A stretch of DNA of 26,218 nt, taken from IMG/VR virus record IMGVR_UViG_3300032241_002945, positions 1-26,218 of that record; one strand, 5' to 3'. A model generated the notes under the pieces. It worked only from the letters and a program-made list of their open reading frames with translations. It was not told the origin of the DNA and did not search any database. Of the stretch, positions 5,730 through 24,954 are shown in pieces; the stretch's first letter is position 1; each line of letters opens with the position of its first letter. The DNA comes from a virus. The translations under genes and the position numbers were made by a program.

Positions 5730-6692
5730 TTAGGCCTTCTTGCCAAGCTTAGCAGGATCGGCTGTTGCAGCAGCACCTACGGCAGCAAGATCAGCGAGTG
5801 ATCCGCCAAATACATAGGTACCAACATGTTGTAGTTGAATCCAGGGGCAGAGCCATACCTTTAGGCCAACTTCACGAGCCCACTGACAGAACATGTAGTC
5901 TTCTGACAGATAACGATTGGAATACTCATGACCGAAAGCGCTATGCTTTGTGTCATCAATGAAGGCAATCGTTTCTTCTGGAGTTGCCCCTGGATTGTTC
6001 TTATAGAACTCACGAATCTCCTTGCCAATACGAGCGTGCTTATTGTCAATGAGTGCATCAAAGAATGCCATGATCTCACGTGAACCATCAAAGGCTGCTG
6101 TACGAACATGGTCAGGACGATACATTAGAGCAGGATACTGAGTACCCATCTTCTCTAGAGCTGAGCGACGGATCATCATGAACCCAGTGCCTGATTCTAG
6201 AACTTCTGCAGGCTCTGAGATACGAATCTCGCCAGAACCATTTGCGGGATTGAATACATAATCACCCACAAACTTCTCTAGGATATTAGCGTCCTGATCA
6301 GCAAAGCCCTTATCTACTGCTGTCTTGACCTTTTCCCATGAGATGCACTTCTTAGGATAAGGACCGCAGAGCACATCATATTCACTCTCATCTGACTGTA
6401 GAGCAAGCATGGTTAGGATATCTTGAGCATTGAATCCAATATCAGAGTCAATGAACATTAGATGAGTGCAATCTGAGCGTAGGAACTCATCGACACAATA
6501 GTTACGAGCACGTGTAATTAGTGACTCGTTGAATAGATAATAGTAACGCACTTCAATGCCGTAGTGTACAGCAAGTGCGGATAGATCATTTGTGCTACGG
6601 CAGAACATGCCTGCACAAGCACCACCATACATTGGAGTGGCGACAAACAGCTTGCGCTTACGTAGTTCTTCTACTGGTACTTTAACTTCCAT
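5730..6692 (-). CDS. GT-A fold glycosyltransferase-like protein
   Basis: 320 residues. The N-terminus KLFVATPMYGG opens a Rossmann-like half. It is followed by THLMFIDSDIGF, where Asp82-Ser-Asp84 is the DxD metal/nucleotide-sugar motif of GT-A enzymes. A later segment with SGTGFMMIRRSALEKMG and SEDYMFCQWAREVGLKVWLCP is typical of family-2-like transferases (acceptor and catalytic ED region). The C-terminus is an alanine-rich tail. CAGGAGA precedes ATG 6692; the gene sits between DUF3310/queC and the clamp gene. Sugar and acceptor are unknown: modified DNA base, virion protein or host surface are all possible. Confidence 0.8.
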   Translation of the reverse strand: MEVKVPVEELRKRKLFVATPMYGGACAGMFCRSTNDLSALAVHYGIEVRYYYLFNESLITRARNYCVDEFLRSDCTHLMFIDSDIGFNAQDILTMLALQSDESEYDVLCGPYPKKCISWEKVKTAVDKGFADQDANILEKFVGDYVFNPANGSGEIRISEPAEVLESGTGFMMIRRSALEKMGTQYPALMYRPDHVRTAAFDGSREIMAFFDALIDNKHARIGKEIREFYKNNPGATPEETIAFIDDTKHSAFGHEYSNRYLSEDYMFCQWAREVGLKVWLCPWIQLQHVGTYVFGGSLADLAAVGAAATADPAKLGKKA

Positions 6693-6695
6693 GCT

Positions 6696-7019
6696 TTAGT
6701 TCTCCTGATCATGCACGTAGAGTTGAATAATTGCGTAGTGGATCACCTTCATCATATCGTTTCGCCAATCTTCAGGTGATCCCTTACGGCCATAACGTTG
6801 AGCATACTTTAGAATATTACCAACACAAAATCCAGTACCATGCCCACCATCAATGATGAACTCAGTTGCTTGATATTTGTTTTGGGAGTAATGTTGCCCA
6901 TATGTGTTATCAATATAGGCACGGATTTCCTCGAGGGTTTGATCCTCGTGGTATTTATAGTCGTTGTCAGAGGTGGATGATGTAATATCTAATGTAATTT
7001 TATCGCCCTTTCTAATCAA
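6696..7019 (-). CDS. DUF3310-like protein (SaV-like domain)
   Basis: 107 residues. The C-terminal half has the pattern FCVGNILKYAQRYGRK, then DWRNDMMKVIHYAIIQ, which fits the DUF3310 family of small phage proteins of unknown function (often labelled nucleotide-kinase-related without proof). The start is TTG at 7019, overlapping the queC TGA as TTGA, with AAGGAG eight bases upstream; no ATG fits. A TATAAATA inside this gene on the minus strand is ordinary coding for Asp-Tyr-Lys-Tyr. It is the tail of the deazaguanine block and precedes the glycosyltransferase. Confidence 0.7.
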   Translation of the reverse strand: MIRKGDKITLDITSSTSDNDYKYHEDQTLEEIRAYIDNTYGQHYSQNKYQATEFIIDGGHGTGFCVGNILKYAQRYGRKGSPEDWRNDMMKVIHYAIIQLYVHDQEN

Positions 7020-7828
7020 GCTGCATACTCCTTAAGAACTTGTTCAACATGTGACTTGGCGGTTTCCCAAGATACGGGACCTGTTTCATCTGCATACGCT
7101 ACAGGATCTGGACGACCTAGCTTGATGAATGCTTCAATACGCTCAACAGACGATGCTGACTTGTAATCTGAATACCAGATGTTATTGTGTTGCATCGGCT
7201 TGTATGAGGTATTTGTGTTAGCATACACGGTATTGAAATTAATGTCAAGCTCTTCGCAAAGATTAACTCCGTCTTGTAGGATGCCAAACTTATCAATTTC
7301 TAGATAAGGTGTGTAATAAACTACACGTTCAGCATCCCAGTTGCCAATACGGAATGCAGCGTCATCTGCATCTCGGAATTCTTGACGGCAGTCAGGATAG
7401 ATCGCATGATCTCCTGCATGAATGCCAAGAGCAATTGAAACATCTTCTTGCCAAGCGCTTGCAACTGAAAGTGCGACTGCTTGTGTGATCGAAGAAAAGA
7501 TCTTGTTACGATTAGGAACAACTGTTGCCTTCATGTTTTCATGAGCATAGTGACCTTCAGGAACTTCATCTCCACCACGAACCAGAGAAGAATTTAGAAG
7601 TTCAGGAAGGCCTACCATCTGAATAGTTTGATGAAAGATGTTGTAACCACGGGTCTTAAGATATTCAACTAGAGCTTCTGCACGTTCTAGTTCAACGCTG
7701 TGCTTTTGACCATAGAAGAATGATAGAGCAGTAATAGTACCGTTGTTCTTCTTTGCTTGTGCTAGACAGTTTAGAAGAAGTGTGCTACTATCCATGCCAC
7801 CAGATAGTGATACGACGAAATGCTTCAT
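7016..7828 (-). CDS. queC: 7-cyano-7-deazaguanine (preQ0) synthase QueC, zinc cysteines absent
   Basis: 270 residues from ATG 7828, which has ATGGAG upstream; an ATG at 7840 lacks a ribosome site. QueC turns 7-carboxy-7-deazaguanine into preQ0 with ATP and ammonia. The PP-loop ATPase motif is SGGMDSS (9-15). Other family segments are SFFYGQKHSVELERA, VPNRN, IHAGDHAIYPDCR and YTPYLEIDK. The C-terminal zinc site, normally SCY followed by CGxCxxC, reads TSYKPMQHNNIWYSDYKSAS, then SVERIEAF. All four cysteines are replaced: Ser208, Asp221, Ser224 and Ser227 by my alignment. The rest of the region is conserved, so this looks like a divergent QueC and not a decayed gene. Last pathway step before QueF and DpdA, encoded just upstream. 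Confidence 0.92.
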   Translation of the reverse strand: MKHFVVSLSGGMDSSTLLLNCLAQAKKNNGTITALSFFYGQKHSVELERAEALVEYLKTRGYNIFHQTIQMVGLPELLNSSLVRGGDEVPEGHYAHENMKATVVPNRNKIFSSITQAVALSVASAWQEDVSIALGIHAGDHAIYPDCRQEFRDADDAAFRIGNWDAERVVYYTPYLEIDKFGILQDGVNLCEELDINFNTVYANTNTSYKPMQHNNIWYSDYKSASSVERIEAFIKLGRPDPVAYADETGPVSWETAKSHVEQVLKEYAA

Positions 7829-7863
7829 AATAGACTCCATAATAAAGACGGTATGTTGTTTAG

Positions 7864-7887
7864 AGTGGTTAGTCTCTTTGAACCACT
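7864..7887 (-). other. Hairpin in the queF-queC gap
   Basis: Perfect 7-base-pair stem (AGTGGTT / AACCACT) with a 10-base loop on the minus strand, starting at the queF stop codon and about 36 bases before the queC ATG. There is no following T-run, so it is not a typical terminator. It may stabilise or separate the queF and queC messages. Its AGTGGTTC opening recalls class I preQ1 riboswitches but the conserved loop and A-rich tail are not matched. Confidence 0.4.
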
Positions 7888-8818
7888 ATTGACGCAAGGT
7901 CTTTGAAGAAATAATTGTTGTATTTCTCAAACTACCTGCAATGTGAAGTAGATGGTTATGTGATGCTCGTACAGGATTAATATCAATCCCACCTCTACGA
8001 GTATATAGACATCCCACAAATAGCTCTTGTGGTTGAACTAGTGAATGTAGTCGTGTATAGATGCATTCACAAATTTCTTCATGGAAATGATTTTCCTTAC
8101 GCATAGAAACGATATACTGCAAGAGCGATTCTTTGGTAGGTAGTTCATCTGCCTTGATGTAGATGTAAACATCTCCCCAATCAGGTTGATTAGTAACACG
8201 ACAATTAGAACGTAGTGAAGGTGACCAAACATACATTAAGCCCTTTTCATTAGAGAGCTTAATGATATCAGGACTTTCATTATATGCACTAAAGTCAAGT
8301 GTTTCGTTTTCAACATCATCTAGCAATTCAAAGTCATACATTTCTTGAATTGGTTGAATTGGGAATACTGTATCGCTATCATTAAAATTTGCAGAATGCA
8401 ACATCACTTCAATATCAGTATTAAGTGCTGCTGATAGATCATTCTCAATGTATTCTCTTGCAAGTTCTAGTGCATCTTGCAAGTTAGTAGCAATCTTAAC
8501 CATGTTATAAGAGTTTAGATATAGCTTCAATGATTTTGATTCTACAATAAATTCACTGTCTGCAGGATAAGTGATCTTAGCAATACAGCTTACAGGATAT
8601 CCATTTGTAAGTAGAAATGATACTTCATAAGCATGCCATGTATCAAATCCAACAAAGGGAAGGTGATCTTCTTCAATGTTGTACTGTACACGATTTAGGC
8701 TACGTGGAATAGGAACTAGAAGTGAAGAATCAATCTTGTCAGGTGTGACATAGGGCTTTACTGCACTACCATCACCTGCTTTACCTAAGTGCACTCCTGC
8801 GATATCTTCAATCTTCAT
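7886..8818 (-). CDS. queF: preQ0 reductase QueF, long two-domain type
   Basis: 310 residues, like the E. coli-type enzyme (282). It reduces preQ0 to preQ1 (7-aminomethyl-7-deazaguanine) with NADPH. The QueF signature ESKSLKLY is at 93-100. The thioimide-forming Cys206 is in SNCRVTNQPDWG, with Asp213 as proton donor, and the substrate-binding pair His246-Glu247 is in HFHEEICE. The C-terminal YTRRGGIDINPVR is nearly identical to E. coli QueF as I recall it. All catalytic residues are intact. The ATG overlaps the dpdA stop as ATGA. Its presence predicts preQ1, not preQ0, as the end product delivered to DNA. Confidence 0.95.
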   Translation of the reverse strand: MKIEDIAGVHLGKAGDGSAVKPYVTPDKIDSSLLVPIPRSLNRVQYNIEEDHLPFVGFDTWHAYEVSFLLTNGYPVSCIAKITYPADSEFIVESKSLKLYLNSYNMVKIATNLQDALELAREYIENDLSAALNTDIEVMLHSANFNDSDTVFPIQPIQEMYDFELLDDVENETLDFSAYNESPDIIKLSNEKGLMYVWSPSLRSNCRVTNQPDWGDVYIYIKADELPTKESLLQYIVSMRKENHFHEEICECIYTRLHSLVQPQELFVGCLYTRRGGIDINPVRASHNHLLHIAGSLRNTTIISSKTLRQ

Positions 8819-10173
8819 GAAAAGAAATCCTCTAATGTTGTTAGTTCATTATTACGAATGATACGCTTAGATGCTACATGTGTCTTACGTTCACGCATCC
8901 ATCTTGCCATATCATCATTTGTTCTGACATTAAGCAAAGCATTCAGAGCAAGTTCTTTATCTTTAGGATGCTTTGAATACTTCTGGTATTCATCTGTCAT
9001 GACTTTATCTAGGTTAGTCACGAAGTTATGGATTTGAAAATACGTATGTGCTGCATTACACAATAGTGTAGAACATATTGCATCTTCATCATTTGTTTCA
9101 AGGACACGATTCTTGATAGTTGAAAACTTCCAGTCACCCATACCATCGCCAAATATATTCGTCATGAATTGTTCTTCAGTGACGTATTCTTCAAATGTAT
9201 CCTTAAATGTAGTATACACGTTTCTGAAATGTTTGTCAACCGCATATGTTTTATTAGTGCCGATTGATTTACAAGTTCCGTTTACCTTAAGTAATCCATA
9301 CTGGAAAGTTGATGTATGTGAACTAGAGTCATAAGAGATACGATCAAACTCGCTAAGATAACCTGACTTAAGAAGGTATAGGATAGGACGCATACGTGAA
9401 ATAGATCCTACACCAAGAACGTGTAGATGCTTTCTGACGTTCTCATGACAGAACTCACTGATCATCTTTGCTGCACGAAGCATCTCAATAGATTCTAGTT
9501 CACCGTTGCCCATGCACGTATCAGCGATTGCCATACCACCAATGTTTTCATAGTCAGAAGGCTCTAGGCGTGATGCAATGCCACGATAGTAAGCAACCAT
9601 GTCTTCTGCACAGTTGCCTTGCACAATGATGATAACCTTTGTCTTAGCACCTGATGACCTGAAGTAAGATGCTTGAGTCTTTACGTTTTCACCTGTAGCA
9701 AAAGCAGACTCTTCATGTTTATCAGCATGAAAGATCTTGTTACCTACGTTAGAACGCTCGTTACGTGTTCTAGTTAAAGAAACAGATGATAAAGGAATAA
9801 CATCAAAGCACATAGCATAATCTGAATACGCTTGTGTCTGGTATATTTGCTTCTTGATTTCTTCGGTGATTGATTTACCTGCGGTAACAATCTGTAGTCC
9901 ACCAGAGTCTGCATAGACGCTATTCGATCCTAGGTTTTCTAATCTTTTAAATTCTTCAACGTGATTTTTTTCAGTGTACGCATTATAAAGAGTTGAGATT
10001 AGTGGCTTAGTGTTGTGGCACGTTTCGTCAATACGCTTCTTGAGCGACTTCATCAATGATAGGGTGGCTCTCTTATAAAGAGGATACCAAGGTGCTTCAT
10101 GATCGGCGGTGAATACACCCATCATGCCCACAGCACTAACTACATAATCTAACTTTTTAATATTATCGGCCAC
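8815..10173 (-). CDS. dpdA: DpdA-like DNA 7-deazaguanine transglycosylase (TGT paralogue)
   Basis: About 452 residues from GTG 10173, with AGGAAAA upstream and 11-base overlap with folE; a TTG at 10206 is an alternative. Exchanges guanine in DNA for a 7-deazaguanine. Tracts matching bacterial TGT can be followed in order: YADSGGLQ (catalytic Asp of DSGGFQ, about residue 89), AMCFDVIPL, IIVQGN (VQGG), IGGMAIAD, HVLGVGS (YLMGVG) and FDRISYDSSS (second catalytic Asp, near 282). The C-terminal TGT zinc site (CxCxxC) is not apparent. The protein is longer than tRNA TGT and the tract sequences diverge, as expected of phage DpdA. Adjacent FolE and Que enzymes supply the base. Confidence 0.9.
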   Translation of the reverse strand: MADNIKKLDYVVSAVGMMGVFTADHEAPWYPLYKRATLSLMKSLKKRIDETCHNTKPLISTLYNAYTEKNHVEEFKRLENLGSNSVYADSGGLQIVTAGKSITEEIKKQIYQTQAYSDYAMCFDVIPLSSVSLTRTRNERSNVGNKIFHADKHEESAFATGENVKTQASYFRSSGAKTKVIIIVQGNCAEDMVAYYRGIASRLEPSDYENIGGMAIADTCMGNGELESIEMLRAAKMISEFCHENVRKHLHVLGVGSISRMRPILYLLKSGYLSEFDRISYDSSSHTSTFQYGLLKVNGTCKSIGTNKTYAVDKHFRNVYTTFKDTFEEYVTEEQFMTNIFGDGMGDWKFSTIKNRVLETNDEDAICSTLLCNAAHTYFQIHNFVTNLDKVMTDEYQKYSKHPKDKELALNALLNVRTNDDMARWMRERKTHVASKRIIRNNELTTLEDFFS

Positions 10174-10852
10174 CTGTAAACTTTTCCTGTAGTGCAATGT
10201 TGTCAAAAAATTCTTTCTTTACATCTGCATCATGAAACTGACCATTCAGTACAGTTGTTTGTGTTAGAGATGATCTTGCCATGATCCCACGATTCTCACA
10301 GCAGCCATGAGTTGCTGCAATGTACACACCCACATCTGTTGTATTTGTTGCATACATGATTTCTAGAGCAATGTCATTGCATAGTTGTTCTTGTAGAGTC
10401 CCACGACGAGCACACCACTGTGCTAGACGTGTATACTTAGACAACCCAATAACTGTATCGCCTGGGATAACACCAATGTAGCAAACGCCCTTCACAGGTT
10501 GATGGTGATGAGAGCAGATTGAATTGATTTCTGAACGAACAACAAGCATTCCTTCATATGCTTCATCACCTTCATTTGGAAAAGCAGTTACTTCAGGACG
10601 TGGATCATATCGCCCAGACATGATTTCATTGATGTACATCTTAGCAAGACGTCTTGCTGTATCCCTTGAATTGGGATCATCTTCTGTATCGATAACTAAA
10701 CTACGAAGAACTAACTCAAACATGATAGTTGCTTCTTTGATCAGATTTTCACGTTCTTCATCTGTGATATATTCAGAAATGTTATCACAAGCCCAATAAC
10801 GAATGTTTTCTTCGTTAAGTCTATTACGAATAATTTCAGAAGTCAATAGCAT
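10163..10852 (-). CDS. folE: GTP cyclohydrolase I FolE
   Basis: 229 residues. Makes 7,8-dihydroneopterin triphosphate from GTP, the first step towards 7-deazaguanines (and folates). The zinc site is SICSHHHQP (Cys113, His116) plus THGCCENRG (Cys184), matching the family pattern SxCEHHxxP and HxCMxxRG. PGDTVIGLSKYTRLAQWCARR matches the conserved substrate-binding segment and DTARRLAKMY the N-terminal one. The ATG overlaps the stop of a small upstream ORF as TAATG. In this context it most likely feeds QueD and not folate synthesis. Confidence 0.95.
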   Translation of the reverse strand: MLLTSEIIRNRLNEENIRYWACDNISEYITDEERENLIKEATIMFELVLRSLVIDTEDDPNSRDTARRLAKMYINEIMSGRYDPRPEVTAFPNEGDEAYEGMLVVRSEINSICSHHHQPVKGVCYIGVIPGDTVIGLSKYTRLAQWCARRGTLQEQLCNDIALEIMYATNTTDVGVYIAATHGCCENRGIMARSSLTQTTVLNGQFHDADVKKEFFDNIALQEKFTGGR

Positions 10853-11019
10853 TATGTTGGGTCCTTTTCCAGGGATGATTTCAATTTTCTTGATACAACA
10901 CCAGCTGGTTGCATTACATATTTTGCATGATCTCTATGCACTTGTGTTTTTTTCCATTTACCTATTTTTGTTTTATCAGATTTTGGTTTACTTATCTTTT
11001 GTGATAATGTATGTTTCAA
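10852..11019 (-). CDS. Putative small basic protein between queE and folE
   Basis: An open frame of 55 residues that fills the only sizeable gap in the que block. It runs from TTG 11019, overlapping the queE stop as TTGA, to a TAA that overlaps the folE ATG as TAATG. Both junction types occur elsewhere in the window, which is the main evidence. The product is very Lys/Arg-rich (KISKPKSDKTKIGKWKK near the N-terminus) and I do not recognise it. The ribosome site GGGG is only about three bases from the TTG, so the start is weak. Confidence 0.4.
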   Translation of the reverse strand: MKHTLSQKISKPKSDKTKIGKWKKTQVHRDHAKYVMQPAGVVSRKLKSSLEKDPT

Positions 11020-11603
11020 GTACCCCAAGCGTTTTTGTAAAGTGGAACTTGAATACGAGGACTAAATCTGAACCCGTTATCTCTACAGTAGTCAGCAACG
11101 TTACGTTCATTCTTTTCATAAGAAGTTGATGTGCCACCAACAGGCATCAGGTATACAGGAACATTTACATCAGATGCTGAATATGCAGCAACAGCTAACT
11201 TAGCATCAAGAATATCTTGTTCATCTGCTACAACAAACTTCAAATATACATTACTGTTAGGAACTTCTGTATATTGCTTAACTACATCAGGTTTAATTGC
11301 CTGACGCCATTCTTCACCTGATACAGGAAGTTTTGCTGAAACTGAAAAGGTAAACTTGATATCATTACAAATACCTTTGACGTATTCTTCAAATGCTGCT
11401 GTAAGATATTGTGTACCATTTGTTTCAAATGTAATATCTGTTAGGTTCATATGACGGCGAGCGATTTCATTGATAAGATCTGGATAGGCCTTTTGCCATC
11501 CTAGTAGAGGTTCGCCACCTGTGATGATCAGATGCTTATCAGGACCAAACTTTCCATCAGGAAGCATTTCTTGCATCTTGTCAACGATCTCAGAAATTTC
11601 CAT
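11016..11603 (-). CDS. queE: QueE, C-terminal fragment after in-frame stop
   Basis: 195 residues if started at ATG 11603, which has only a poorly placed AAGGAA. It is the main body of 7-carboxy-7-deazaguanine synthase, the radical-SAM enzyme that contracts the pterin ring. The SAM-binding motif ITGGEPLLGWQ, then ITFETNGTQ, VSAKLPVSGE, YLKFVVAD and VYLMPVGGT are all well conserved. It is in the same frame as the N-terminal fragment, 72 bases upstream including the stop codon. On its own it would lack the cluster cysteines and so be inactive. The coding between the two fragments is normal QueE sequence, so the gene is otherwise intact. Confidence 0.85.
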   Translation of the reverse strand: MEISEIVDKMQEMLPDGKFGPDKHLIITGGEPLLGWQKAYPDLINEIARRHMNLTDITFETNGTQYLTAAFEEYVKGICNDIKFTFSVSAKLPVSGEEWRQAIKPDVVKQYTEVPNSNVYLKFVVADEQDILDAKLAVAAYSASDVNVPVYLMPVGGTSTSYEKNERNVADYCRDNGFRFSPRIQVPLYKNAWGT

Positions 11604-11675
11604 GAAAGGAGAAAGTTCCTTGAACCGTGGATCCCATGATGCATAAGAGTCACATCCTGTATGAACAAGAGGTAG

Positions 11676-11873
11676 TTATTGATAGGACTTGTATGGATGA
11701 AACTCATGAAGTTGTGCTACAGTATCACGTTCACCCGATAGCTGTCCACGCTTCATTCCGAAACCAGAACATGTAAAATTACACCCAAAGGTTCTTAGAA
11801 AGACAGAAGGTACGCCAACAAACATACCTTCACCTTGCAAACTGTAAAACAGTTCTGATACTTTAATCTTCAC
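11676..11873 (-). CDS. queE: QueE, N-terminal fragment ending at in-frame TAA
   Basis: 65 residues from GTG 11873 (GAGGG nine bases upstream; TTG 11882 also possible). It holds the QueE N-terminus with SELFYSLQGEG, PSVFLRTFGCNFTCSGFGM and its CxxxC pair (residues 31 and 35). The frame stops at TAA 11676-11678 after YKSYQ and then resumes without shift as LPLVHTGCDSYASWDPRF. The cysteine in TGCDSY is the likely third cluster ligand and is downstream of the stop. Overlaps queD by 11 bases, the same overlap as folE/dpdA. This is either a real nonsense mutation, a sequencing error or readthrough. Confidence 0.82.
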   Translation of the reverse strand: MKIKVSELFYSLQGEGMFVGVPSVFLRTFGCNFTCSGFGMKRGQLSGERDTVAQLHEFHPYKSYQ

Positions 11874-12321
11874 GATGTCCAACCCTCATTGCCATGTTAT
11901 TATCTGTTTCGCGAACTTCTACCTTGCAGCACCATACTCTATCGCTCCAACCGTAGTCCTTAAGGAAACAATCATTCACGTAAGTATATAGAAAATCAGC
12001 AAGGCCTTCACACCCTGTCTTCTCAACCAAAGTGATTTTTGCCAGACCCTTGTCTCCTAATAGCAACAGGTCATCCTTATGAGGATCATCTTCTGCAACC
12101 AGAAGTGTATGATCGAACCACTCTTCTAGAAGTGCCTTGAGTGGCTTTAGACCACCGAAGTCAACTACCCAATTACGAGCGTCAAGTGTATCAGACTCAA
12201 ACTCAAAGTGAAATGATAGAGCATACCCATGGATTAGATTGCAGTGACTGTCTGCTCGCCATTGACGATATGCAACAGGACCTATCTGCTTATAAGTTTT
12301 AGTAGAAATATATTTTGCCAT
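11863..12321 (-). CDS. queD: 6-carboxy-tetrahydropterin synthase QueD, variant metal site
   Basis: 152 residues from ATG 12321, preceded by GGGAGT. It converts dihydroneopterin triphosphate to 6-carboxytetrahydropterin, between FolE and QueE. Family marks seen are WVVDFGGLK (as in VMDFGDLK), WFDHTLL with His71, and KTGCEGLADFLY with Glu105, equivalent to PTxEN. The catalytic Cys27 is in ADSHCNLIHGYALSF. In E. coli QueD this region reads CxxxHGH with zinc histidines. Here the second His of HGH is Tyr33 and a His26 precedes the cysteine, so the zinc site is rearranged or altered. PTPS fold call is firm; the exact reaction is inferred from the neighbours. Confidence 0.9.
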   Translation of the reverse strand: MAKYISTKTYKQIGPVAYRQWRADSHCNLIHGYALSFHFEFESDTLDARNWVVDFGGLKPLKALLEEWFDHTLLVAEDDPHKDDLLLLGDKGLAKITLVEKTGCEGLADFLYTYVNDCFLKDYGWSDRVWCCKVEVRETDNNMAMRVGHRED

Positions 12322-12323
12322 AA

Positions 12324-12782
12324 TTACTCCCAAGGAAATTGTACCCAACGCTTATCTTCATTACGATCAATAGTAACGCCGAAGTAATTAGCTTTTACAG
12401 GTTGTGATACATTATAAATCAGACATGCAGTCCTAATGTTGTCAGTATAAGGTGAAAAAGATAATTTGTCAAGTAGAGTCTGCATAGTTTTTCCAGAATC
12501 TATAATATCATCAACTATAAGAACATTACAATGTGCTTTTACAATCGTTTCTAGTTTTGCAAAGTTCCCATCTGTATCTACGATTGTGCCGTCTCTTGTA
12601 GATAAGTGTATCATCAATGTAGGTACATCAAGTGCATGTGACAAGTATACTGCAGGTACACACCCACCTCTTACAAGACCTACAATAATATCTGGAACCC
12701 AAGTATCTTCTTTCAGATCAATAGCAATTCTAAGAATGTCTGCTAGAAATTCTGGATGTTCATAATGTCTTAATTCACTCAT
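12324..12782 (-). CDS. Type I phosphoribosyltransferase, purine-like
   Basis: 152 residues. The PRPP-binding loop VLIVDDIIDSGKTM (87-100) is diagnostic, and the pyrophosphate loop is GLVRGGCVPA (35-44). The C-terminus DKRWVQFPWE resembles bacterial xanthine/guanine phosphoribosyltransferases, whose hood ends with a W(V/I)xFPWE segment. It would join a purine-type base to PRPP. The start overlaps the deformylase stop as ATGA and queD follows after two bases, so it is part of the que operon. It could salvage guanine for GTP supply or act on a deazapurine; the sequence does not decide. Confidence 0.87.
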   Translation of the reverse strand: MSELRHYEHPEFLADILRIAIDLKEDTWVPDIIVGLVRGGCVPAVYLSHALDVPTLMIHLSTRDGTIVDTDGNFAKLETIVKAHCNVLIVDDIIDSGKTMQTLLDKLSFSPYTDNIRTACLIYNVSQPVKANYFGVTIDRNEDKRWVQFPWE

Positions 12783-13291
12783 GTCTTGGTTCTCTTTAAG
12801 AGGCGATTATGTGCCTTGAGCATTCGCATAGCCTTTTCTTTATGAATAGGATTTGCTTGATCAATGTAGCATATTCCATTGAGATGATCTAGTTCATGTT
12901 GAAAACAACGAGCAGTCAATCCTTCAAACTTCATTGTTTCAGTTACACCATTAGGCATAGTAAACCTAACTTTTACGCTACGTGGCCTTTTGATCTTTAC
13001 AATAAGACCTGGATAGCTTAAACAACCCTCTTGCCAGTAAATTTGTTCAGGAGAAAAATCAACAATACGTGGATTAAAACAAGCGTATACTGTTTCACCT
13101 GTAAGTACAAAAACTCGATAAGGAAGTCCAACTTGATTTGCTGAAAGACCTATACCCTGATTAGCAATCATAGTTTCGGTCAGATCCTTTGCAAGTTGAA
13201 TAGGATCCGTTGGAGGGTTACTAAAGTCAAAGTGTAGAGCAACTTGCTTTAGTGCAGGATGATTGTCGTCAACTAGATCTAGAATTGCCAT
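12779..13291 (-). CDS. def: Peptide deformylase
   Basis: 170 residues, normal length. Removes the formyl group from new N-terminal methionines. All three motifs are intact: GIGLSANQVG (46-55), EGCLSYPG with metal ligand Cys90, and QHELDHLNG with His132, Glu133 and His136. Phage deformylases are known from marine T4-like phages, where they are thought to favour translation or photosystem turnover. The ATG overlaps the MazG-like stop as TAATG. It lies at the promoter-proximal end of the que operon but has no obvious pathway link to it. Confidence 0.96.
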   Translation of the reverse strand: MAILDLVDDNHPALKQVALHFDFSNPPTDPIQLAKDLTETMIANQGIGLSANQVGLPYRVFVLTGETVYACFNPRIVDFSPEQIYWQEGCLSYPGLIVKIKRPRSVKVRFTMPNGVTETMKFEGLTARCFQHELDHLNGICYIDQANPIHKEKAMRMLKAHNRLLKRTKT

Positions 13292-13659
13292 TAGAAGCTC
13301 TTCCCACCTTCTTTTTCTCTATTACTTAGCTGATGGTCAGCACGGGTACGATTATATTCATGCTTCTCAGCAATTGCCCCTGCAATATCAAACCCTTCTC
13401 GTTCTGCTAGATCTAGAATACGAATGATGCAATCAGCAAGCTCTACTTCGGCCATCTTTCGATGAGGTAGATGATCATCCATTAGATTCTTGCGGGCACC
13501 TTCTAGTGCTTCTGACAATTCTGAGTGACAGAGTGCAATCATAGTGCCGAACTCGCGGGGCTTGTTATGCCATCCCATTTCCTTAGCTTGAGCATGTAGC
13601 TTTGATTGAATATCCTGCAGACATGTAATTTCAAGATGATCTAGTGCATAATCAGACAT
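13291..13659 (-). CDS. MazG-like nucleotide pyrophosphohydrolase
   Basis: 122 residues from ATG 13659, with AAAGGA upstream. A longer frame back to 13719 would run through the promoter and is rejected. The helical pattern EFGTMIALCHSELSEALEGAR, then MAEVELADCIIRILDLAE, carries the MazG metal-binding EExxE/ExxD arrangement (SELSEA and ELADCIIR). Such enzymes hydrolyse NTPs, dNTPs or (p)ppGpp-like nucleotides, and phage versions are proposed to shift host nucleotide pools. First gene of the leftward que/def operon. Confidence 0.85.
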   Translation of the reverse strand: MSDYALDHLEITCLQDIQSKLHAQAKEMGWHNKPREFGTMIALCHSELSEALEGARKNLMDDHLPHRKMAEVELADCIIRILDLAEREGFDIAGAIAEKHEYNRTRADHQLSNREKEGGKSF

Positions 13660-13690: not shown

Positions 13691-13719
13691 ATTATAAGCG
13701 ATGTGCGATTAAAAAACAA
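13691..13719 (-). promoter_or_regulatory. Sigma-70-type early promoter of the deformylase/que operon
   Basis: On the minus strand: TTGTTT (13714-13719), a 17-base spacer and a perfect TATAAT (13691-13696), about 25 bases upstream of the MazG-like ATG at 13659. It is the only clear promoter upstream of the chain of tightly coupled genes down to queC and probably beyond. Confidence 0.78.
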
Positions 13720-14202: not shown

Positions 14203-14847
14203 ATGACTATTTATTGCACATATCTAACAGTATATAAAGGCAACTTGCTTCCACCATTCTATATAGGTTATACTAATATAGAAAAGATTGCCATAGGATA
14301 TAACGGATCTGTTACTTCAAAAAAATATAGAATTCTATGGGAACAGGAACGTAAAGAAAACATACACCTATTCAAAACTGTTATTATAAAAACATTCAAG
14401 ACTAAAGATTTAGCAATTGAACATGAGAGATATTTACAGACATTTTTCAATGTTGATAAAAATCCTATGTACATAAATCAGGCAATTTCAAATATAAAGT
14501 TTAAAAATATAGGAGGTTATACCCTATCTAATAGAACTAAGAATAAGATGAAAAAACAAAAATCAGAACAGCATCGTAAAAAAATATCAAAATCTCAATC
14601 AGGTATACCATGTCCTAATAGGGGCATATCTAGAATAGGAGTCAAAAGAGAAGGTATAGGTGGTAGAAAAAGGGGGTGTTCTGCATGGAACAAAGATATA
14701 TCCCATTCTGATATGACCATATATCTTATACAGCAAAAAGCATTAAATAGAGAAAGAATACAATGTCTACATTGTAGTATTATTGTAACACCTGGAAACT
14801 TTGCAAGATGGCACGGTGATAATTGTAAGCTTAAACCCTCTGACTAA
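14203..14847 (+). CDS. GIY-YIG-like homing endonuclease with NUMOD-like repeats and zinc finger
   Basis: 214 residues, very AT-rich and lysine-rich. The N-terminal domain has TYLTVYKGNLLPPFYIGYTN, a GIY-YIG variant ending in YIG, then GYNGSVTSKKYRILW. The middle (HRKKISKSQSGIPCPNRG, GVKREGIGGRKRG, CSAWNKD) resembles NUMOD3-type DNA-binding repeats. The C-terminus CLHCSIIVTPGNFARWHGD plus NC forms a Cys2HisCys-like finger. It would nick or cut phage DNA lacking the element and spread by repair. It is free-standing, on the opposite strand, and its last 17 bases overlap the 3' end of gene 46. CGGGAG precedes ATG 14203. Confidence 0.82.
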   Translation: MTIYCTYLTVYKGNLLPPFYIGYTNIEKIAIGYNGSVTSKKYRILWEQERKENIHLFKTVIIKTFKTKDLAIEHERYLQTFFNVDKNPMYINQAISNIKFKNIGGYTLSNRTKNKMKKQKSEQHRKKISKSQSGIPCPNRGISRIGVKREGIGGRKRGCSAWNKDISHSDMTIYLIQQKALNRERIQCLHCSIIVTPGNFARWHGDNCKLKPSD

Positions 14848-24164: not shown

Positions 24165-24191
24165 AAAAGGGGACTTTCGCCCCCTTTTTTT
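24165..24191. terminator. Bidirectional terminator between convergent genes
   Basis: Stem AAAAGGGG (24165-24172) / CCCCTTTT (24181-24188) with an 8-base loop. The plus side runs into seven Ts. The minus side also ends in TTTT. It lies between the plus-strand glycosyltransferase stop and the minus-strand protease stop and can end both transcripts. Confidence 0.88.
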
Positions 24192-24954
24192 ATTTCCTGA
24201 TTGTCCAAGCATCAGATCCGAATGCAGGATTTTCCAGATACGCTGCTGGAATCCAGAAGTGCCCATTGTCACCCCAATCGGTTCCCCATGAGTTACGAAC
24301 CTCATAGTAGCACTGCTTTGATGAGAACATACCTGTTTTATAATTCTCATCATAACCAATAACAGTTACTGCATGTCCACCTAAGCATCTTTCAAAAGGT
24401 GTAGGCATAGGTACTACACCTGTATCAGTTACTTCTTGAGACTCGAAGCTATCATAAATCTGAATACCGATGATGAAGGGATATCCATCAGCAAGACACT
24501 GCTTATAATCTTGTCCATTTTCTAAACGTGAGTATTGAACAATTTTGTTTTGGGCAGCTTCATCGATTTCAACTTGAGTAGGCTGTTCTTTGAATCTTGA
24601 AATATCATAAGGCCAATCTTTTTCAAGACCAATACCTTGCTTGTTTAGTACTTGAATGGCATCACGAAGATAAGCTCCACTATCTTGATCAACAGTGCCT
24701 TCCATGGCACGTTCCCAATAATAAAGAGCAAGACGAGAATATGGCCCGCCGCCATGTTCAAAGGTAAACACTGCAGTGGCAGCTTGTGCTGAACAGCTAC
24801 CTAGTTCACCCTGATCATAAGGAGGCTCTTTAAACTTATCACGAAGGCTTACCTTTTCAGGTAACTCAATTGCTGTAGGAGCATGTACGGCACTGAATTT
24901 CCAATCTCTTGGATCTTCACGATCTCTTAAATAGCCATATACTCGTCTTGTCAT
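24190..24954 (-). CDS. Papain-like (C1A) cysteine protease
   Basis: 254 residues. A C1-family peptidase fold with the catalytic residues in order. DQGELGSCSAQAAT contains the oxyanion Gln48 and nucleophile Cys54 (the eukaryotic motif is QGxCGSCWA). LGGHAVTVIGYD gives His194 and RNSWGTDWGDNGHFWI gives Asn221. There is no signal peptide and little or no propeptide (about 45 residues before the Gln), unlike lysosomal cathepsins. The start has AAGGAG. It sits 15 bases downstream of a structural gene, so it may be a virion component or process virion proteins; a host-directed role is also possible. Confidence 0.92.
   Translation of the reverse strand: MTRRVYGYLRDREDPRDWKFSAVHAPTAIELPEKVSLRDKFKEPPYDQGELGSCSAQAATAVFTFEHGGGPYSRLALYYWERAMEGTVDQDSGAYLRDAIQVLNKQGIGLEKDWPYDISRFKEQPTQVEIDEAAQNKIVQYSRLENGQDYKQCLADGYPFIIGIQIYDSFESQEVTDTGVVPMPTPFERCLGGHAVTVIGYDENYKTGMFSSKQCYYEVRNSWGTDWGDNGHFWIPAAYLENPAFGSDAWTIRK

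Follow-up and report, generated by a model that had tools for sequence, protein, structure and literature searches.

The kind, order and product of the operon described here are already known from Vibrio phage 6E35.1a and its relatives. Phage 6E35.1a (Schizotequatrovirus, Straboviridae; MW824377) is a T4-type phage that carries queD-folE-dpdA2-queF-queC on one strand, and mass spectrometry found about 15% of the dG in its DNA as dPreQ1 (PMC12028318). Vibrio phage nt-1 (NC_021529) encodes a DpdA2 homologue alongside folE, queD and queC, but its cluster lacks queF, and its DNA contains mainly dPreQ0 and some dADG and dG+, at low level (PMC6884629). Pseudomonas phage pf16 (NC_041881) has the arrangement queE..queD..folE-dpdA-queF-queC near gp43, and Enterobacteria phage 9g, which makes dG+ (PMC6884629), possesses a DpdA and a Gat-QueC of the same chemistry class.

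The DNA analysed here (the window) is the 26,218-base virus record IMG/VR IMGVR_UViG_3300032241_002945. It contains the T4-type core genes gp43, gp62, gp44, gp45, gp46, gp47 and gp55, a UvsW-like helicase gene and a tail-tube protein gene; gp44 shows at most 58% identity to its counterparts in Stenotrophomonas phage DLP6 and Methylophilales phage Melnitz. Like 6E35.1a, nt-1 and pf16, it carries a cluster of 7-deazaguanine genes, but several features set it apart: in 6E35.1a, queE lies outside the cluster, QueC retains four zinc cysteines, pdf and prt are not adjacent, and DpdA is about 31–35% identical to that of the window, while pf16 has a 30% identical DpdA and a canonical Cys4 QueC, and 9g has a DpdA without detectable similarity and a QueE with the canonical CX3CX2C motif. 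A close relative, IMG/VR contig 3300010885_026736 (L002), has the same operon and flanks (dpdA 98% and queC 96% identical), but its queE is intact. The first-pass annotation had called it notable that a full synthesis path and QueF occur together in a T4-type core; this combination has a precedent in 6E35.1a, with dPreQ1 measured in the DNA (PMC12028318).

Profile searches of the window found family matches for every pathway step, and the FolE, QueD, QueE, QueC, QueF and DpdA-like genes noted at first pass were all recovered on the minus strand at or near the positions then given. These matches and the homology to nt-1 DpdA2 support the earlier assignment as a 7-deazaguanine DNA-modification operon of a T4-type phage, and we consider it very probable that the operon is a DpdA2-type system producing dPreQ1 that blocks restriction. 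In such a system, FolE, the QueD-like protein, QueE and the QueC-like protein would convert GTP to preQ0, QueF would reduce preQ0 to preQ1, and DpdA2 would replace guanine in phage DNA with preQ1 through a TGT-like base exchange; the resulting dPreQ1 would protect the DNA from restriction enzymes. With it, an uncultured T4-type lineage would join the phages predicted to have dPreQ1 in their DNA.

The genes form a minus-strand chain in the order mazG, pdf, prt, queD, queE, a small ORF, folE, dpdA, queF and queC. The chain is headed by a MazG-like pyrophosphatase gene (13291–13659; phrog_5658, E 6e-52; 89% identical in L002), which starts at a short gap opposite a divergent gene, followed by a peptide deformylase gene (12779–13291; PF01327, E 5e-39), a purine-type (xanthine/guanine/hypoxanthine-like) phosphoribosyltransferase gene (12324–12782; PF00156, E 1e-15) and, as the fourth gene, queD (11863–12321). 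Once start codons had been re-set by comparison with relatives (queD ATG at 12321, queE GTG at about 11873, dpdA GTG at 10173), most neighbouring genes overlapped or almost touched. The chain of stop/start overlaps proposed previously therefore holds for most junctions but not for two of them, the 45 nt between queF and queC and the approximately 163 nt between queE and folE. The latter gap is filled by a small lysine-rich ORF of 55–58 aa (10852–11028, minus strand), an insertion relative to L002 with overlapping junctions at either side; L002 lacks it and has a TAATG junction between queE and folE. The gene order recurs in dozens of independent contigs, so it is not due to chance.

Expression from one consensus early promoter had also been proposed. 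A putative promoter is located on the minus strand in the gap between mazG and the divergent gene (13691–13719), with a perfect TATAAT −10 element (13696–13691), a 17-nt spacer and a −35-like TTGTTT (13719–13714), and it is conserved in L002. However, the −35 element matches at only 3 of 6 positions, and a scan for consensus promoters did not list this site and found sites in the region no more often than in shuffled sequences; a promoter upstream of mazG is thus plausible but weak.

The first-pass annotation described an intact pathway and overlooked three peculiarities: a stop in queE, a QueC without zinc cysteines and an altered zinc site in QueD. All pathway genes are present, but queE (11016 to about 11873, minus strand), which encodes a radical SAM CDG synthase and matches phrog_2076 on both halves, is not one open frame. 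The ORF list, direct reading of the DNA and alignment to intact homologues all place an in-frame TAA at 11678–11676, between cluster cysteines 2 and 3, which breaks the gene into two ORFs, one of 68 aa and one of 195 aa, so that queE as written in the record encodes no intact QueE. A frameshift was rejected, since the DNA reading shows an in-frame stop. Recoding of TAA was likewise rejected, since prt, queD and folE all end in TAA as their ordinary stop and neither of the two tRNAs found is a suppressor. A clean, unrecoded stop in an otherwise intact window is what would be seen if the stop were real and fixed; the phage's own preQ0 path would then be broken, and either DpdA2 and QueF would use CDG or preQ0 from the queuosine pathway of the host, a kind of host participation discussed for other phages (PMC6884629), or the system would have begun to decay. 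Against this, the codons 3′ of the stop show a dN/dS of about 0.23 relative to the uninterrupted queE of L002, indicating that queE was under selection until very recently and that any loss must be very recent. Moreover, the stop is a single-base matter in one assembled contig, it occurred in no other QueE homologue scanned over the cluster-cysteine stretch, and searching IMG/VR with a DNA pattern for this part of queE returned only the L002 contig, although the tool may skip the window's own record. We regard a fixed stop as possible but doubtful; the TAA may be a rare variant or an error of sequencing or assembly, and otherwise the phage would take CDG or preQ0 from the host queuosine pathway.

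All three [4Fe-4S] cysteines of QueE are present in the window, in the long-loop spacing CX3C-X38-C. The phage QueE family to which it belongs (about 86 loci) shows CX3C-X34..50-C, versus X2 between cysteines 2 and 3 in phage 9g. Our search of open-access papers found no description of a long-loop QueE, although one may exist.

The gene following folE encodes the predicted DNA 7-deazaguanine transglycosylase (about 8815–10173, minus strand). It is by homology a DpdA2: the protein belongs to phrog_10773 (E 3e-80), BLASTP gave 32% identity to nt-1 DpdA2 over 286 aa (E 1e-41), and the proteins of the window, nt-1 and 6E35.1a fall in one tree, while identity over its length to the protein of any cultured phage is only about 30%. 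Two short patterns retrieved at least 381 DpdA2-encoding stretches from IMG/VR, dozens of them with the layout of the window. The protein had no match in a Pfam search, profile searches against PDB sequences gave no real match, and 9g DpdA could not be usefully aligned with it.

The relationship to tRNA-guanine transglycosylases (TGTs) raises the alternative that the enzyme is a phage TGT acting on tRNA and that the operon serves to modify tRNA of the host or the phage. When a profile of 68 DpdA2 relatives was aligned with E. coli TGT (probability 94.5%, E 8e-8), ADSGGLQ coincided with the TDSGGFQ motif and CFD with the second Asp motif, and YDSSSHT fell close to the region of the nucleophile. 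D100, D135, Q196 and D293 (numbering of the 463-aa ORF) occupy TGT active-site positions, and D100, D135 and D293 are invariant across the 68 homologues, from which catalytic-type roles are inferred for these Asp residues. An AlphaFold model built from the 68-sequence input (pLDDT 91.2) has the TGT fold, and its best Foldseek matches in the PDB were tRNA TGTs (E 3e-8), with the DNA preQ0 insertase DpdA (7ui4) also matched (E 5e-6); the TM-scores of these matches were about 0.4, so they indicate superfamily rather than close kinship. On the other hand, the CxCxxC zinc motif of tRNA TGTs is absent, no queA-, queG- or queH-like gene was recognised within the window, and the protein belongs to the sequence family of the DpdA2 proteins of nt-1 and 6E35.1a, whose DNA carries dPreQ0/dG+ and dPreQ1, respectively (PMC6884629, PMC12028318). 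Clustering of the protein with tRNA TGTs had been named in advance as a finding that would count against a DNA-modification operon; in the profile part of this comparison, the Pfam TGT model PF01702 gave no match in the window at E ≤ 10 but hit 14 of 14 control genomes, and the earlier reading stands. A tRNA substrate is accordingly very improbable, and DNA is the predicted target of the DpdA2. As in other DpdA2 systems, dpdA adjoins preQ0 synthesis genes.

Directly downstream of dpdA, queF (7886–8818, minus strand) encodes a predicted bimodular NADPH-dependent preQ0 nitrile reductase, with QueF_N (PF14819, E 9e-32) and QueF (PF14489, E 2e-20) domains. The catalytic residues C206, D213 and H246 and the QueF motif ESKSLKLY are intact, and the protein aligns with Vibrio QueF nitrile reductase structures in the PDB. 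The nitrile-reductase model TIGR03138 matched with E 1e-69, but with 235 bits against a curated cut-off of 293. Among loci whose dpdA is at least 44% identical and whose sequence continues beyond dpdA, queF directly follows dpdA in 28 of 29. In the DpdA2 tree, queF was present in 32 of 37 rows on one side and 2 of 35 on the other, although absence could be scored only as far as the fetched DNA extended and some of the five queF-less rows on the queF-rich side are cut short; the label required 8 changes on the tree versus 24 in shuffles. The two members with measured DNA, nt-1 and 6E35.1a, are sisters in this tree. Since the nitrile-reductase residues are retained in QueF and the presence of queF follows the DpdA2 tree, and since dPreQ0 predominates in nt-1, whose cluster has no queF, and the queF-bearing sister 6E35.1a has dPreQ1, preQ1 is the best prediction for the main base in the phage DNA. 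The earlier expectation of preQ1- or preQ0-type bases is thereby narrowed mainly to preQ1, with preQ0 no longer the main prediction. The tie between queF and the tree also makes specialisation of DpdA2 clades on preQ1 or preQ0 testable. There is very little chance that the QueF-family protein is instead a QueF-L-like amidotransferase yielding dG+ (deoxyarchaeosine), for although a 2019 survey noted that sequence cannot always separate QueF from QueF-L (PMC6884629), the bimodular architecture, the ESKSLKLY motif, the TIGR03138 match and the alignment to nitrile reductase structures all argue against it, as do phages Dp-1, HVTV-1 and 6E35.1a, which have QueF-family genes and mainly dPreQ1 (PMC6884629, PMC12028318).

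In two T4-type relatives (L257:3351–4656 and L262:3504–4819), the place of dpdA2 between folE and queF is taken by another protein of 260 aa (phrog_19058, DpdA-like by eye) together with a formyltransferase-like gene, which suggests another final base. For the Dpd tailoring enzymes that were named later, a literature search turned up unrelated papers only.

The last gene of the chain, queC (7016–7840, minus strand; PF06508, E 4.5e-35), encodes a QueC-like protein with S, D, S and S in place of the four zinc cysteines, and these cysteines were replaced in 80 of the 80 nearest viral QueC homologues as well. The PP-loop SGGMDS (SGGxDS) and the YPDCRQEF motif (YPDCRxEF) are retained; TIGR00364 scored 118 bits, under its cut-off of 150. 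Phylogenetic analysis placed the cysteine-less QueCs, including those of marine group II archaea and planctomycetes, on one side of a branch (support 90/88) in a tree whose alignment included the cysteine columns themselves. The archaeal genes lie within folE-queE-queC-queD operons, and the cysteine-less protein was the sole full-length QueC match in all 20 genomes of marine archaea and planctomycetes that were examined, although most of these genomes are metagenome bins, in which a second QueC could have been missed. TGT was found in 19 of the 20, including all 15 archaea. Since it is the sole QueC in TGT-bearing genomes and retains the PP-loop and YPDCRxEF, a zinc-free preQ0 synthase is likely, and the protein of the window probably works like QueC.

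The distribution of the two QueC forms among the phages did not follow dpdA similarity. Relatives with 70–79% identical dpdA carry a Cys4 QueC at the same place that is only about 29% identical, whereas L116 and L118, with 45% identical dpdA, share the cysteine-less form at 71–72% identity to that of the window. This indicates that queC has been swapped in place, and comparison of these sequences shows an operon order that is conserved while single genes are exchanged. Loci of the cysteine-less clade are the window (7016–7840, minus strand), L002, L116, L118, L121, L173–L235 and L253–L332. Taken together, we lean towards the reading that the window QueC belongs to a zinc-free, preQ0-making branch that provides marine group II archaea and planctomycetes with their only QueC for tRNA modification and that has spread among phages, displacing ordinary QueC in place within otherwise conserved DNA-modification operons. 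Such a clade questions the assumption that QueC requires its zinc site and would affect annotation of the preQ0 pathway in phages, marine archaea and planctomycetes. No description of a zinc-less QueC was found in open-access papers, which does not prove that none exists.

Among the other synthesis genes, FolE (10163–10852, minus strand; PF01227, E 3e-37) is a GTP cyclohydrolase I with the zinc ligands C113, H116 and C184. The QueD-like 6-carboxytetrahydropterin synthase (PF01242, E 6e-15; phrog_2389, E 6e-40) has a PTPS domain in which the alignment located the catalytic Cys and the Asp-His pair, but the zinc ligands AAH...HGH are replaced by RQW and HGY. HGY was present in 123 of 125 QueD homologues, and most aligned rows have a conserved His ahead of the Cys; instead of being lost, the zinc site may have been rearranged. 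QueD-like proteins with HGY and without the AAH histidine are common to marine archaea too. Given a QueC without zinc cysteines and a QueD without HGH, family membership alone does not assure that the preQ0 path is active.

Phosphoribosyltransferase genes are located in or near the preQ0 cluster (queE/folE) in many phages; our guess is that the enzyme recycles guanine released by base exchange. Between queC and gp45, two minus-strand genes are conserved with the operon, one for a DUF3310 protein (6696–7019) and one for a phrog_1574 protein with a weak glycosyltransferase match (5730–6692). An ORF on the plus strand between gp46 and the divergent gene (14203–14847) resembles, by eye, a GIY-YIG homing endonuclease. 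Near the window end, a minus-strand gene for a papain-family cysteine protease (24190–24954; PF00112, E 5e-16) adjoins a probable structural gene.
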